A DNA stretch of 64,000 bases from positions 1-64,000 of the forward strand of contig JANWWZ010000002.1 in assembly GCA_025057115.1 (NCBI GenBank), read 5' to 3'. Shown one piece after another: positions 39,175-62,448 of the stretch. Both the position numbers and the translations under genes were made by a program. How positions within the stretch are numbered: the first letter of the stretch is position 1; every line of letters begins with the position of its first letter. A model generated the notes under the pieces. It ran no database searches. It worked only from the letters and a program-made list of their open reading frames with translations, and was not told the DNA's origin. The DNA comes from Bernardetiaceae bacterium. GTDB taxonomy: Bacteria; Bacteroidota; Bacteroidia; Cytophagales; Thermoflexibacteraceae.

Positions 39175-39220
39175 AAACACCTATGTTTTGACCAAAATAT
39201 TTCCCAGCAAGAAAACTTGT

Positions 39221-39811
39221 TCACTTTGCAAACACTTCTTGCAAGGGGATGGAGAGCGCTGGGAAAAGCACTGGCACGGCAGTAGCTTCTGCATGGTATA
39301 CTTCGTGCAAGTAATAACTCCCTTCTTTTAATACAAACTGCTCTACTATCTGCTCGCTAGGAAAGACGATCCAATACTCCAGCACGCCTGCTTCTTGATA
39401 AAGTTCGTATTTGTCGCGCAAATCAGTTTGAGGGTTGCCAGGAGAGAGAATTTCTATTATCCAGTCGGGAGCGCCGTTGCAACCTCGTTCATCTAACTTG
39501 CTCGCATCGCAAATGACGCACAGGTCCGGCTGTACTACTGTGTAAATTTGTTCGTCTGACAAGTAAGATTTTTGCCTGTCATACAAACGCACATCAAAGG
39601 GAGCGTAAAAAACGTTACAAGGATTTCCATTGAAAAAATTGAGCAAGTACCGCGCTATTTTTCCAGATATTTTTTGATGGCGCACGCTGGGAGCGCTCAT
39701 TTGCCTTATGAAGCCTTTGAGCAACTCCACTCGCTCTACAAACTTCCATGTAAGATAGTCGGCATAGGTGTATTGCTTGCCGAAATCAAGCTCGAGCAAA
39801 GAGGTAACCAT
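39221..39811 (-). CDS. Uma2 family (DUF820) putative endonuclease, copy A
   Basis: A 196-residue protein with the restriction-enzyme-like fold of Uma2/DUF820. The family start YTYADYLTWK, the Asp of VQPDLCVICD, the PDWIIEILSPGN core (Asp-Glu motif) and YELYQEAGVLEYWIVFP (in place of the classic Lys-containing strand) are present. The biological role of the family is not settled. It is followed, on the same strand upstream, by an almost identical copy (39896-40486). The two proteins are the same except for residues about 47-69. The start ATG at 39811 has no ribosome binding site. Confidence 0.88.
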   Translation of the reverse strand: MVTSLLELDFGKQYTYADYLTWKFVERVELLKGFIRQMSAPSVRHQKISGKIARYLLNFFNGNPCNVFYAPFDVRLYDRQKSYLSDEQIYTVVQPDLCVICDASKLDERGCNGAPDWIIEILSPGNPQTDLRDKYELYQEAGVLEYWIVFPSEQIVEQFVLKEGSYYLHEVYHAEATAVPVLFPALSIPLQEVFAK

Positions 39812-39895
39812 AGTTTCTAAGATTGGTTTTGCATTCTTTAAGGCGCTTATCTTGACTTTACTTGTTTTTCAAGTGAGATTATGTCAAAAAGTTTT

Positions 39896-40486
39896 CTACT
39901 TTGCAAATACTTCTTGCAAGGGGATGGAGAGCGCTGGGAAAAGCACTGGCACGGCAGTGGCTTCTGCATGGTATACTTCGTGCAAGTAATAACTCCCTTC
40001 TTTTAATACAAACTGCTCTACTATCTGCTCGCTAGGAAAGACGATCCAATACTCCAGCACGCCTGCTTCTTGGTAAAGTTCGTATTTGTCGCGCAAATCA
40101 GTTTGAGGGTTGCCAGGAGAGAGAATTTCTATTATCCAGTCGGGAGCGCCGTTGCAACCTCGTTCATCTAACTTGCTCGCATCGCAAATAACGCACAGGT
40201 CTGGCTGCACTACTGTGTAAATTTGTTCGTCTGACAAGTAAGATTTTTGCCTGTCATACAAACGCACATCAAAGGGAGCATGAAACACTTCGCAGGGCGT
40301 TTTTCGAAAAAAGGAGCTCAACATTCCACTGAGGCGAACTGAAATGCGTTGATGGCGCACGCTGGGAGCGCTCATTTGCCTTATGAAGCCTTTGAGCAAC
40401 TCCACTCGCTCTACAAACTTCCATGTAAGATAGTCGGCATAGGTATATTGCTTGCCGAAATCAAGCTCGAGCAAAGAAGTAACCAT
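39896..40486 (-). CDS. Uma2 family (DUF820) putative endonuclease, copy B
   Basis: The second of two tandem 196-residue Uma2 proteins, 675 bases upstream of copy A on the minus strand. Outside one block the protein sequences are identical and the DNA differs only at about nine, mostly third-codon, positions. The block at 40280-40348 (69 bases, residues about 47-69) is strongly diverged from its counterpart 39605-39673 yet has exactly the same length. It reads RISVRLSGMLSSFF against KISGKIARYLLNFF at its start. This is the transcriptionally leading copy. Confidence 0.88.
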   Translation of the reverse strand: MVTSLLELDFGKQYTYADYLTWKFVERVELLKGFIRQMSAPSVRHQRISVRLSGMLSSFFRKTPCEVFHAPFDVRLYDRQKSYLSDEQIYTVVQPDLCVICDASKLDERGCNGAPDWIIEILSPGNPQTDLRDKYELYQEAGVLEYWIVFPSEQIVEQFVLKEGSYYLHEVYHAEATAVPVLFPALSIPLQEVFAK

Positions 40487-40698
40487 AGCGTTTTAATTTT
40501 TACTAACTCATGTTTTGTACTATGCAGGGATATGTTTAGTGTGTTTTTTGGATACTTGGATAAATTTTTCTTACAAGTCAGGCGCACTTGTCGAACGTTA
40601 GTTGATTCCTTCCGCTAGAGGCTGTGTACAGTGCCATCCCGTATTGGCAACACCGTTACCCATATTTGTAACACTTATTTGGGTATTTATGGCATCTA

Positions 40699-59402: not shown

Positions 59403-60125
59403 GTGAAGGAGGAATATCATCGCTGGTACTCTCATCGCATTGGGCGGGATTTTGAAATGCTCACCTTTGGCCATGGCGGCTATCCAATGATTATTTTTCC
59501 TACTTCGATGGGAAGATATTACCAAAACAAAGACTTCGGACTGATTCATTCCATTTCGTGGTTTATCAACATAGGCAAGATTAAGGTCTATTGCCCTGAC
59601 AGCCTCGACAACGATAGCTTTTATAATCGATCCATTCATCCCGCCCATCGGATCGCTAATCATATGATTTACGACGATTTAATTTTACACGAAGTGGTGT
59701 ATCGAGCTATGTATGAAACAGGTCGTAGTACAGTGTGCATGGCAGGTTGCAGTTTCGGTGGCTATCACGCCCTAAACTTTTCTTTTCGGCATCCTGACAA
59801 AGTGCGCTACTTGTTTAGCCTTGGCGGGGCTTTTGACATAAAGTCATTCATGGATGGGTATTATGACGACAATGTGTATTTTAACAATCCAGTAGATTAC
59901 ATGCCCAACTTAGGACCTGGCTGGTATTTAGACAATATCCGAAACACAGGGATTGTTCTTAGCACGGGAGAGTACGATATATGCAAGCAAGACAATATTC
60001 GCATGTCTGACATTCTCAACAGCAAGCAGATTCCTCACTGGCTAGACATTCGCCCCAGAGCTAACCACGATTGGCCTGCTTGGAATGCTGTTTTGCCAGA
60101 ATACGTAGCCCAAATGCGTGTATAA
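59403..60125 (+). CDS. esterase-family alpha/beta hydrolase with a GTG start
   Basis: A 240-residue hydrolase like the putative esterase (esterase D-type) family. The nucleophile Ser is in AGCSFGGYHAL near residue 120, the acid is probably in LSTGEYDICKQD, and the His in NHDWPAWNAVLPEY near 222. Family members begin with EYHxWYS...GRDxEMLxFG, which here starts right at a GTG (59403). The upstream frame has no ATG before a stop at 59376-59378, so this is a confident GTG start. The substrate is unknown. Confidence 0.85.
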   Translation: MKEEYHRWYSHRIGRDFEMLTFGHGGYPMIIFPTSMGRYYQNKDFGLIHSISWFINIGKIKVYCPDSLDNDSFYNRSIHPAHRIANHMIYDDLILHEVVYRAMYETGRSTVCMAGCSFGGYHALNFSFRHPDKVRYLFSLGGAFDIKSFMDGYYDDNVYFNNPVDYMPNLGPGWYLDNIRNTGIVLSTGEYDICKQDNIRMSDILNSKQIPHWLDIRPRANHDWPAWNAVLPEYVAQMRV

Positions 60126-60269: not shown

Positions 60270-60451
60270 CCGTTGTTCGCATCTCTGTGCCGTTGTTCGT
60301 GTCTCCACGAACAACCCTTGCTATTGTTGGTGTTTTTGTTGCGCGTGAAGACACGCGCAACGGCGAGGAAATGCCGTTGTTCGCATCTCTGTGCCGTTGT
60401 TCGTGTCTCCACGAACAACCATTTGAGATTGTTCGTAAAAGCATGAACAAT
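60270..60451. repeat. array of short palindromic repeats (two identical 47-bp units plus hairpins)
   Basis: Two identical 47-base units lie at 60270-60316 and 60374-60420. Each ends in a perfect ten-pair hairpin, GTTGTTCGTG/CACGAACAAC with loop TCTC (60292-60315, 60396-60419). Between them is another ten-pair hairpin, GTTGCGCGTG/CACGCGCAAC with loop AAGA (60338-60361). To the right a weaker one, ATTGTTC/GAACAAT, lies at 60428-60451. The remaining 60126-60269 and 60452-60483 hold no gene. The layout is like a REP/BIME-type element, not a CRISPR array (two units, no spacers of constant length). Confidence 0.75.
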
Positions 60452-60483
60452 GGCAAAATATGACCCTATAAAAATTTAGACAA

Positions 60484-62448
60484 CTACTTAAAAGCATGAG
60501 TTTTTTGCCAAAGAATTTGGCTTTTAGGTCCTTTTTGACCAAACACTAAGCGGGCAATTTTAAATTCGGGCAATAAAACATCGTGTGAAGCAACGCCATT
60601 TTGCAACTGATCCTCTGGAAAGTGAAAACTGAGGTTTTGGTAACCCGTTTTGCGCAAGTCAATAGGCAAGTCGTTTTTGTTTTGGGGATATACGTAAAGA
60701 AAAAATTCTGGCTTGATATCAGTTTCTGCTGCTGGATAGCGGTAAAAAATGAGTCGATTGCCTTTTAAAAAGACCTTGAAAACGTCGTCGGCTATCATCA
60801 AAGCGCCCTTTAAATCGCCTCGGCGGTAGCGATTGGCTGCATGGATGCCTAACACCACTCCTTTGGCTGGCTGTTCGCTAATGCGCCAGTGAAAATCTTC
60901 CAAAAAGCGGTCTTTGCGCTTGATTTCATGCGGAGGAATAAACTTGCCCTCAGGCTGGGTAATAAAAAGAATCTCTTGCAGTTGGGCTGAGTCGCTGAAG
61001 GTAATCACCATATCGCTGCATTTGACGTAGTTAAGCCCTATGAAAAGGGTATCGTTTTCCAGCACGTGGTAAAGACTTTCGGCATTACCCCTCACCCATA
61101 TTTTTTTCAGTTCCCCTTCTCGAAATTTTGCATCAATATTTTTGCCCTTGATTTGATTAAATTGCTTTATGGTGTCAAGAGAAATGACAAATGCTTTTTC
61201 TTGTAAACTCATGGAGTCTATTTGTCCGTTTCGCATGCGCACCAAAATTTTCTGAGCTGTCAATTGTGAGTTTTTTGCCCAAATGATGGGGTCGTAGTAA
61301 AAATAAATCGTAGAGTCGTTGAGGAGGTAGCCCAATGAGTCGCATTTAGATTGAAAATCAGAACGATACATGCGCACGTTGCGGTAAGCAGCCAGTTTTT
61401 TAATAGGGGGAAGCGTATCAGCAGGGTTCTCTTTGAGCGAAATAAGCGTATCGGCAGCGATGAAAAGGGTATCTTTGCCGTTGCGCTGCGGACTTATCAG
61501 CACTGCATTTCCATACACGTGACTGGTTTCTAGCACTCCATCGTAGCGGGTATAGTCTCCTAAAATGATGAAGTTGTCTTTTTTGTGGTAAAATTCTACG
61601 TTGCCTTTGGCAAATCCGCGCTCCATCACTCGGTCGTAATCCACTACGTCGCCGCTGATGGTGTATTCTGGCGTATCAATGCGCGTGCGACCTTCAAAAT
61701 TAGACTTCCCCAATACGGTATTGTACTGACCGCGGTCAGTTACAATATCGCCATTGCGCGTTTTAATGCGCGTTCTAGAGTTAAAGTACACCACTTTGGT
61801 GCGCGCATTGTAAGTAAGGGTATCTCCTGAAAGTTCAGTTTCGGGGCTGGAGTATCGTACTTGACCGCGAAAGGTAGCTACTTTAGTAATGGTGTTGTAG
61901 TAGCCTACCCGACTGGTAAGCCGCGAGCTATCATCTTGTACCATACCGCCACCGGTGTAAACTGCTATCTTGGTAGCCAGATTGTAGTCCAACCGATTGG
62001 TAGTTACTGTTTTTTCGCGGTCTTTTAAGACAACATTGCCTCGCAAGCGCGCAATTCTAGTGTTGCCATCGTAAAATAGCGAATCTCCAGTGGCTGTAGT
62101 GCTATCTGCATCAATGAGAAAAATGCGACCAAAAGCATGTACCCAATTGCGCTTTAAATACTGGATGGCACTATCGCAATACAGGAAAGCATCCCCTTGC
62201 CGAAAAATTACTTGAGTTTTCACAACCGTATCCATGACCACTTTGCGCACGTTCTCGCCATTGATAACCTGACCAATCAAAACTCCTGCGCCAGGCAAAA
62301 GTTCTACAGGGGGTTCTTTCTTGGTAGGTTTGGCTTGAGCACTGCTGGCAGGTGATTGTCCATTAGCTACCCAGTACCAAAACACCAGCAGGCAACACAA
62401 AAGGTTAGCTCCCTGCTTTGCTTGTGAAGAAGCACGCATGCGGACCAT
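60484..62448 (-). CDS. OstA/LptA-like organic-solvent-tolerance protein
   Basis: A 654-residue exported protein with a signal peptide (LLCCLLVFWYWVANGQS, about 15-31). From about residue 65 to 350 it contains repeated LptA/OstA-type strand units (GDAFLYCDSAIQYL, ATGDSLFYDGNTRIARLRGN, LSGDTLTYNARTKVVYF, ISGDVVDYDRVMERGFAKGN). This is the beta-jellyroll used to carry LPS across the periplasm. Bacteroidota have this long OstA-like form with an extra C-terminal region (about 490-654) of unknown role. The likely function is LPS transport to LptD. The ATG at 62448 or the one three codons later starts it. Confidence 0.88.
   Translation of the reverse strand: MVRMRASSQAKQGANLLCCLLVFWYWVANGQSPASSAQAKPTKKEPPVELLPGAGVLIGQVINGENVRKVVMDTVVKTQVIFRQGDAFLYCDSAIQYLKRNWVHAFGRIFLIDADSTTATGDSLFYDGNTRIARLRGNVVLKDREKTVTTNRLDYNLATKIAVYTGGGMVQDDSSRLTSRVGYYNTITKVATFRGQVRYSSPETELSGDTLTYNARTKVVYFNSRTRIKTRNGDIVTDRGQYNTVLGKSNFEGRTRIDTPEYTISGDVVDYDRVMERGFAKGNVEFYHKKDNFIILGDYTRYDGVLETSHVYGNAVLISPQRNGKDTLFIAADTLISLKENPADTLPPIKKLAAYRNVRMYRSDFQSKCDSLGYLLNDSTIYFYYDPIIWAKNSQLTAQKILVRMRNGQIDSMSLQEKAFVISLDTIKQFNQIKGKNIDAKFREGELKKIWVRGNAESLYHVLENDTLFIGLNYVKCSDMVITFSDSAQLQEILFITQPEGKFIPPHEIKRKDRFLEDFHWRISEQPAKGVVLGIHAANRYRRGDLKGALMIADDVFKVFLKGNRLIFYRYPAAETDIKPEFFLYVYPQNKNDLPIDLRKTGYQNLSFHFPEDQLQNGVASHDVLLPEFKIARLVFGQKGPKSQILWQKTHAFK

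Follow-up and report, generated by a model that had tools for sequence, protein, structure and literature searches.

Pairs of REP elements and RAYTs (REP-associated tyrosine transposases) are best known from Proteobacteria, where the tag is GTAG. In the literature, families of the GTAG/GTGG type are listed (PMC2817692), GTAG and CGTC REPs are described (Di Nocera, 2013, PMC3733652), REPINs and tandem clusters are defined (Bertels and Rainey, 2011, PMC3116915), and for the proteobacterial enzymes the tag and the loop are shown to contribute, to differing degrees, to single-strand cleavage (PMC8266576). Closer to the organism considered here is subclass 2.6 of the transposases, which Quentin (2018, PMC6006769) places mostly in Bacteroidetes, flanked by repeated atypical structures without GT[AG]G, and in which the region contacting GTAG is not conserved.

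The hairpin array of this study lies within the window, the whole 64,000-nucleotide stretch that was analysed, which is contig C22 of a genome of 2.996 Mb in 86 contigs. We consider it quite probable that the array belongs to a REP/REPIN family with a new tag, YGCC, that is mobilised in trans by a RAYT of the Bacteroidota and is an orphan in this genome. The observations behind this reading are the copy number, the tag, the covariation of the stem, doublets with related spacers, the spread within the order and the linkage to RAYT genes in relatives.

The array sits between two convergent genes, an alpha/beta-hydrolase-like (esterase) gene at 59403–60125, with a Pfam match under the curated cut-off, and an OstA-like gene on the minus strand at 60484–62448. 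All three of the perfect ten-pair hairpins with four-base loops of the original prediction are present: hairpin 1, GTTGTTCGTG[TCTC]CACGAACAAC, on the plus strand at 60292–60315; hairpin 2, GTTGCGCGTG[TCTT]CACGCGCAAC, on the minus strand at 60338–60361; and hairpin 3, identical to hairpin 1, on the plus strand at 60396–60419. The fourth, weaker one is found on the minus strand at 60428–60451 as a decayed unit with 8 of 10 pairs and a loop other than TCYY. Unnoticed before were the unpaired YGCC tag on the 5′ side, two half-elements and the tag-outward pairing of the units. The tags read TGCC at 60288–60291 for hairpin 1, CGCC at 60362–60365 (minus strand) for hairpin 2, TGCC at 60392–60395 for hairpin 3 and TGCC at 60452–60455 (minus strand) for hairpin 4, and our covariance model R1 matches hairpin 1 at 60284–60319 (50.4 bits) and hairpin 3 at 60388–60423 (50.7 bits). 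The half-elements, on the plus strand, consist of left arm and loop only; one at 60272–60285 has TGCC two bases upstream and has counterparts in other arrays, and the other at 60376–60389 carries its TGCC tag at 60372–60375. Hairpins 1 and 2, around a 22-nt spacer, make up a REPIN-like tag-outward doublet at 60288–60365, and hairpin 3 with the decayed hairpin 4, around an 8-nt spacer, a second one at 60392–60455. Half-element and full element are duplicated together on the plus strand (60270–60423); this repeat had been put at two identical 47-base units, and while the repeat itself stands, the copies measure 50 nt (60270–60319 and 60374–60423, spacing 104) and are 98% identical. The competing stem CAACGGC/GCCGTTG is likewise real, and it arises because the tag and arm of the minus-strand element face the tag and arm of the next, truncated element. 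Elsewhere in the window, at 39212–40488, there is a tandem duplication with a spacing of 675 bp and stretches 98–99% identical, possibly of a short gene.

Chance origin of the window hairpins is excluded: 100 shuffles of the window gave no match to the hairpin pattern against two in the real sequence, and the DNA fold of the array region has a z-score of –7.4, with none of 200 shuffles equally stable. Genome-wide, with up to 3 mismatches allowed, the family counts 109 copies (56 forward, 53 reverse; none for the reversed-pattern control), spread over 29 sites among the matches listed. Of 98 genomes of the same order, 14 match the simple pattern and 50 match R1, own genome included in both cases, the high per-genome R1 counts of that scan being minimum figures. 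These counts support the original prediction of a REP-like mobile palindrome family and contradict its alternative, a local duplication with no further copies and no relatives. In a sample of the phylum, 17 of 296 genomes match at E≤1e-4 (per-genome counts again being at least figures), namely, besides the own genome, 8 others from its order, 7 from its class and 1 from beyond. An exact-pattern scan of named genomes also matched two Mucilaginibacter bins, a Flavobacterium bin and a Chitinophagales bin; since the last two have the DNA in common (99.9% over 4.6 kb), they can represent no more than one source, and how they are labelled is open to doubt.

Tagged, oriented units number 132 and occur in 24 of the 25 stretches examined, mostly in arrays; read in one direction, the layout is YGCC-N7-GTG[TCYY]CAC-N7′. 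Of 117 units, chosen regardless of tag and oriented by the TCNN loop, 116 have C at –2, 115 have C at –1, 102 have G at –3 and 113 have a pyrimidine at –4. On the 3′ side nothing is comparably conserved, no base exceeding 72 of 117 in the four positions past the hairpin. The loop is TCTT, TCCT, TCCC, TCTC or TCTG in 115 of these units, where TC at the loop start was imposed by their selection. The stem occurs in the variants GTTGTTCGTG, ATTGTTCGTG, GTTGTTTGTG, GTTGCGCGTG and others, and the two arms change together. The compensated stem changes claimed from the window alone are thereby borne out: across 58 aligned hairpins from several genomes, rows that had been chosen for pairing, 6 of 10 pairs are altered on both sides, and 0 of 500 shuffles reach the covariation score. 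When copies were chosen on the CC tag and the core alone, 115 of 138 retained at least 6 of the 7 outer pairs, with a paired fraction of 0.863 against a shuffled maximum of 0.786; for the 28 unique arm pairs the margin is far smaller (0.571 against 0.556), and several of the unpaired copies resemble truncated units running into the next tag. As in REPs, then, there is a short palindrome (20–50 nt) in many copies, mostly intergenic by simple ORF calls, with a constant unpaired tetranucleotide directly 5′ of the hairpin, both in the own genome and beside RAYT genes. A search of Rfam gave nothing close to the gathering score.

The position of the window array between convergent genes, and the fact that the hairpin at 60292–60315 passes a simple terminator scan, would suit a different reading, in which duplication has multiplied hairpins that terminate transcription of the flanking genes or stabilise their RNA at the 3′ end; a 3′ element serving the esterase and OstA genes had indeed been proposed originally. 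By simple ORF calls, 22 of 31 array rows could be classified (left out were 2 single weak matches, 5 rows at contig ends and 2 with unclear neighbours; for L062 the left gene was taken as starting outside the array). Nine of them are convergent, again in keeping with a terminator, but 6 are divergent and 7 same-direction. Of the 10 ORFs adjoining the 5 divergent arrays tested, 8 have a Pfam match, and in 3 of these arrays the ORFs on both sides do. Because some arrays thus sit between two 5′ ends, they are not tied to 3′ ends. The terminator scan found 2 terminators where 0.8 were expected from shuffles, and the family does not show the 3′-end placement with a trailing T run that marks an intrinsic terminator. 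In 4 of the 5 relatives that have an esterase orthologue, its flanks were scanned over ~1.5 kb in either direction and contain no family hairpin. Because OstA does not adjoin the esterase in the examined flanks of these four relatives, they offer no clean empty-site comparison. The proposed 3′ element of these two genes is therefore not supported, and as the terminator reading also leaves the unpaired tag and the RAYT linkage unexplained, we regard it as very unlikely.

The arrangement of the units argues for the REPIN side of our preferred reading. Neighbouring pairs within 250 bp (n=103) comprise 24 tag-outward, 14 tag-inward and 65 same-direction pairs. Fifteen long tag-outward doublets, some of them copies of one another, each consist of an ATTG or CTTG unit and a GTTG unit around related spacers, and the spacers align in the same orientation as judged by eye, those of L061 and L065 only partly; these are inverted doublets with a conserved spacer, as REPINs are. 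The window doublet with its 22-nt spacer recurs on contig C15 in a 150-nt alignment at 81% identity (the L060 and L059 spacers being compared), and the sister genome, G002, has similar composites of 110–117 nt at 78–80%. Arrays lie within about 700 bp of a contig end on five contigs (C11, C12, C15, C25 and C86), for which reason the assembly is unreliable there; with several arrays ending contigs, a RAYT inside an array could be absent from the assembly.

The search for a RAYT that had originally been suggested came out in two ways, with no intact gene in the own genome and, in relatives, a RAYT clade that has tagged hairpins of this kind beside it. Even with the threshold relaxed to E 10, PF01797 finds no Y1 transposase in the own genome. 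Much of the relevant clade escapes this profile, whose score for A3 member 1 is 14.9 bits where the cut-off is 23, and because of this poor detection the profiles A1, A3 and NF047646 were added. A1 (E≤0.001) and A3 (E≤1e-8) returned nothing from the own genome, and NF047646 only a 41-aa fragment on contig C21 at E 0.027, so that an intact RAYT, and with it a REPtron, was not found in the window's genome. The fragment (L260, C21:8961–9056) is that of a Y1 transposase with NHIHGIL, and a weak, decayed family hairpin (16.5 bits) lies about 100 bp away.

Other copy-rich genomes are comparable. G002, with at least 52 R1 matches, is likewise without an intact RAYT, and G004 (at least 61) and G006 (at least 65) have no A3 gene and other RAYT types only; the YGCC hairpin family flanks none of the loci of such types that were scanned in G001, G004, G006 and G010. 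Since these three genomes are rich in copies with no A3 gene, a high copy number is possible without the gene in the same assembly. We infer that the own genome has lost its RAYT, and its copies are probably orphans.

The case for a RAYT partner comes from the relatives. A RAYT in G007 (L164) has five family hairpins around it, and the A3 alignment was built from relatives of this protein. The A3 profile was then searched in the 98 genomes and the flanks were scanned with R1, a model trained on rows from other loci. Thirty A3 loci were returned, of which 25 were counted (E<1e-50); at E≤0.05, 17 of the 25 have family hairpins no more than 600 bp away to one side or both, 11 of them to both, and at E≤0.01 the figures are 14 and 9. 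Leaving out L208, whose flanks prompted the test, gives 16 of 24 and 10 of 24 at the less strict threshold, and taking all 30 loci gives 19 and 12 (E≤0.05), the five loci outside the count including L231 with hairpins on both sides and L235 with a single one. Eight of the 25 genes have no R1 match in their flanks, and 3 of these 8 have short flanks. The nearest hairpin faces tag-outward on 25 of 28 sides, in a side list that omits weaker opposite-strand duplicates and some farther matches. On one contig, G056:C202, there are two copies of the RAYT, with family hairpins on either side of each. In relatives, therefore, a RAYT flanked by the repeat goes together with dispersed copies, as in a REPtron. 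Hairpins occur in 25 of 26 genomes with an A3 gene (E<1e-40) as against 25 of 72 others (Fisher p 2e-8, a test that ignores phylogeny).

Hairpins hand-picked from the R1 matches beside RAYT genes number 52, of which 50 are distinct and 48 of those adjoin A3-type genes. Among the 50, 47 keep CC and 42 keep GCC, in matches to a model that itself favours the tag. Their loops start with TC in 33 cases and otherwise in 17, several having a longer loop of the TTTTAGCG type, and because of these 17 the TC loop rule of the own genome is not general.

Around 40 other Y1 loci, the top PF01797 matches with 138 kb in total, R1 matches twice at E≤0.05, once within a gene, and many of these loci carry other hairpins. 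Of 12 further Y1 loci, chosen mostly for their longer frames, one (G005:C357) is preceded at about 119 bp by an imperfect hairpin of the family. Two A1-type RAYT loci, L146 and L149, have one hairpin each, the latter not far from an A3 gene in its genome, and given these two, A3 may not be the sole RAYT partner.

Some neighbouring systems came to light in the same scans. The A1-type RAYT genes L136, L141, L144 and L145 (the last broken) have flanking hairpins whose stem is preceded by TGCT or CGCT, in one case by TGCTG, and whose loops are mostly TGT or TGC; TGCT/CGCT is possibly a sister tag to YGCC. In G047:C1 (e.g. 378512–3998374) there are 29 matches to the A1 profile, several partial or with stops, which suggests a recent expansion and decay of RAYTs. 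Y1 transposases of about 150 aa in relatives (L110, L129, L107 and L121), most with a Y---Q--HH motif resembling subclass 1.2, are flanked by repeated hairpins of their own, for example CCCACGAA[TTTA]TTCGTGGG and CTAGGGGC/GCCCCTAG; for subclass 1.2, PMC6006769 lists no REPs.

As to the A3 proteins themselves, all 6 examined match the NCBIfam family REP_Tyr_transpos at E≤0.001, member 1 staying under the curated cut-off, and the A3 profile matches the E. coli TnpAREP structure 4er8 at E=1.4e-5. The motif NH[LIV]H and an SS pair are present in 6 of 6, WQ in 5 of 6 and YIH.NP in 6 of 6, with Q or N at the variable position in 3 of 6. The marks of subclass 2.6, or RAYT group 5, given in PMC6006769 are NH[LIV]H, WQ, YIH[QN]NP and SS, a length of about 179 aa and occurrence in Bacteroidetes, and the A3 proteins resemble it in motifs and are of similar length. 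We read an A3-type RAYT as a HUH nuclease with one catalytic tyrosine that resembles subclass 2.6/group 5.

This partner also bears on whether the repeats might be MITEs of a transposon other than a RAYT, or attC-like or uptake-sequence repeats. The GTTG...CAAC ends loosely recall attC boxes. Yet the transposase that the hairpins flank in relatives is a RAYT, the family does not flank the 40 top PF01797 loci beyond the 2 weak matches, and TIGR02249 yields only sub-cut-off tyrosine recombinases in the own genome, as in all 14 control genomes; we find an origin of this kind extremely improbable. The integron reading was rejected, there being no integrase over the cut-off in the own genome.

Returning to the REP/REPIN family with its RAYT, linkage and anatomy together would point to recognition, cleavage and mobilisation by the A3-type enzyme, and one may picture the process as follows. 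The unit is a 10-bp stem with a TCYY loop, GTG/CAC at the stem top and an unpaired YGCC tag in front. The Bacteroidota A3-type RAYT would recognise tag and hairpin on single-stranded DNA, cut near the tagged hairpin and move the tag-outward doublet in trans, and a tag-outward arrangement of this sort also brackets many of the RAYT genes themselves. Arrays would then have grown or decayed by local duplication, which would also account for the half-elements. Neither excision nor cleavage nor a polymorphic site showed up in the sequences compared.

Perhaps the orphan arrays now serve the host and are kept by selection, through binding of a nucleoid protein, gyrase or the replication fork, or through protection of mRNA. 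The high copy number in a genome with no intact RAYT found, and the 98 of 138 copies with all 7 outer pairs intact, could be taken in this sense; the half-elements and local duplicates, on the other hand, look like turnover, and at the single site tested the hairpin is absent from the 4 relatives scanned. Such a host role seems to us unlikely. A wider proposal, which we put forward as a possible but doubtful extension of the preferred reading, is that YGCC marks a third tagged superfamily of REPs with its own RAYT clade, at home in one order of Bacteroidota with scattered members beyond, whose arrays would keep expanding in lineages without an intact transposase, such as the genus of the window, either by replication-linked duplication of self-folding units or by supply in trans.

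Irrespective of these details, YGCC together with a GTG/CAC-topped stem amounts to a concrete tag-plus-hairpin rule tied to one protein clade, and because of that tie, tag recognition and the choice of cleavage site outside GTAG become directly testable. Copy-rich genomes without an intact RAYT could show how such repeats persist and grow once the enzyme is gone. In practical terms, YGCC arrays break assemblies, five contigs of the own genome being affected.

Our literature search, which covered the texts of openly available papers, found no description of the YGCC hairpin family. The tag, being neither the GTAG or GTGG of canonical REPs nor CGTC (TGTC, CCTC), places the family outside the GTAG and CGTC superfamilies. 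Like the proteobacterial REPs with their RAYT/TnpAREP (REPtrons; E. coli, Stenotrophomonas, Pseudomonas), it consists of short palindromes with a tag that lie mostly between genes, grouped in doublets and clusters and adjoined in some genomes by the gene of a Y1 HUH transposase; unlike them, it has YGCC in place of GT[AG]G, a perfect 10-bp stem with GTG/CAC at the top, a different RAYT clade and, in the own genome, no intact RAYT that we could find. The structures beside subclass 2.6 are called weaker and atypical in PMC6006769, whereas the YGCC hairpins are strong and have a constant tag, though the two sets may overlap. The family resembles REPINs, as PMC3116915 presents them, in its inverted doublets, whose spacer is conserved and which are probably what moves, and also in its ordered tandem clusters, but here neighbours facing the same way are more numerous than inverted ones (65 of 103 pairs). 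The CGTC REPs, finally, are similar in having an 8–9 bp stem, a 4–5 nt loop and a tag other than GTAG, and in occurring in Bacteroidetes among other phyla; they differ in the tag itself, and while PMC3733652 reports no dedicated transposase for them, the YGCC family is linked to a RAYT in relatives.
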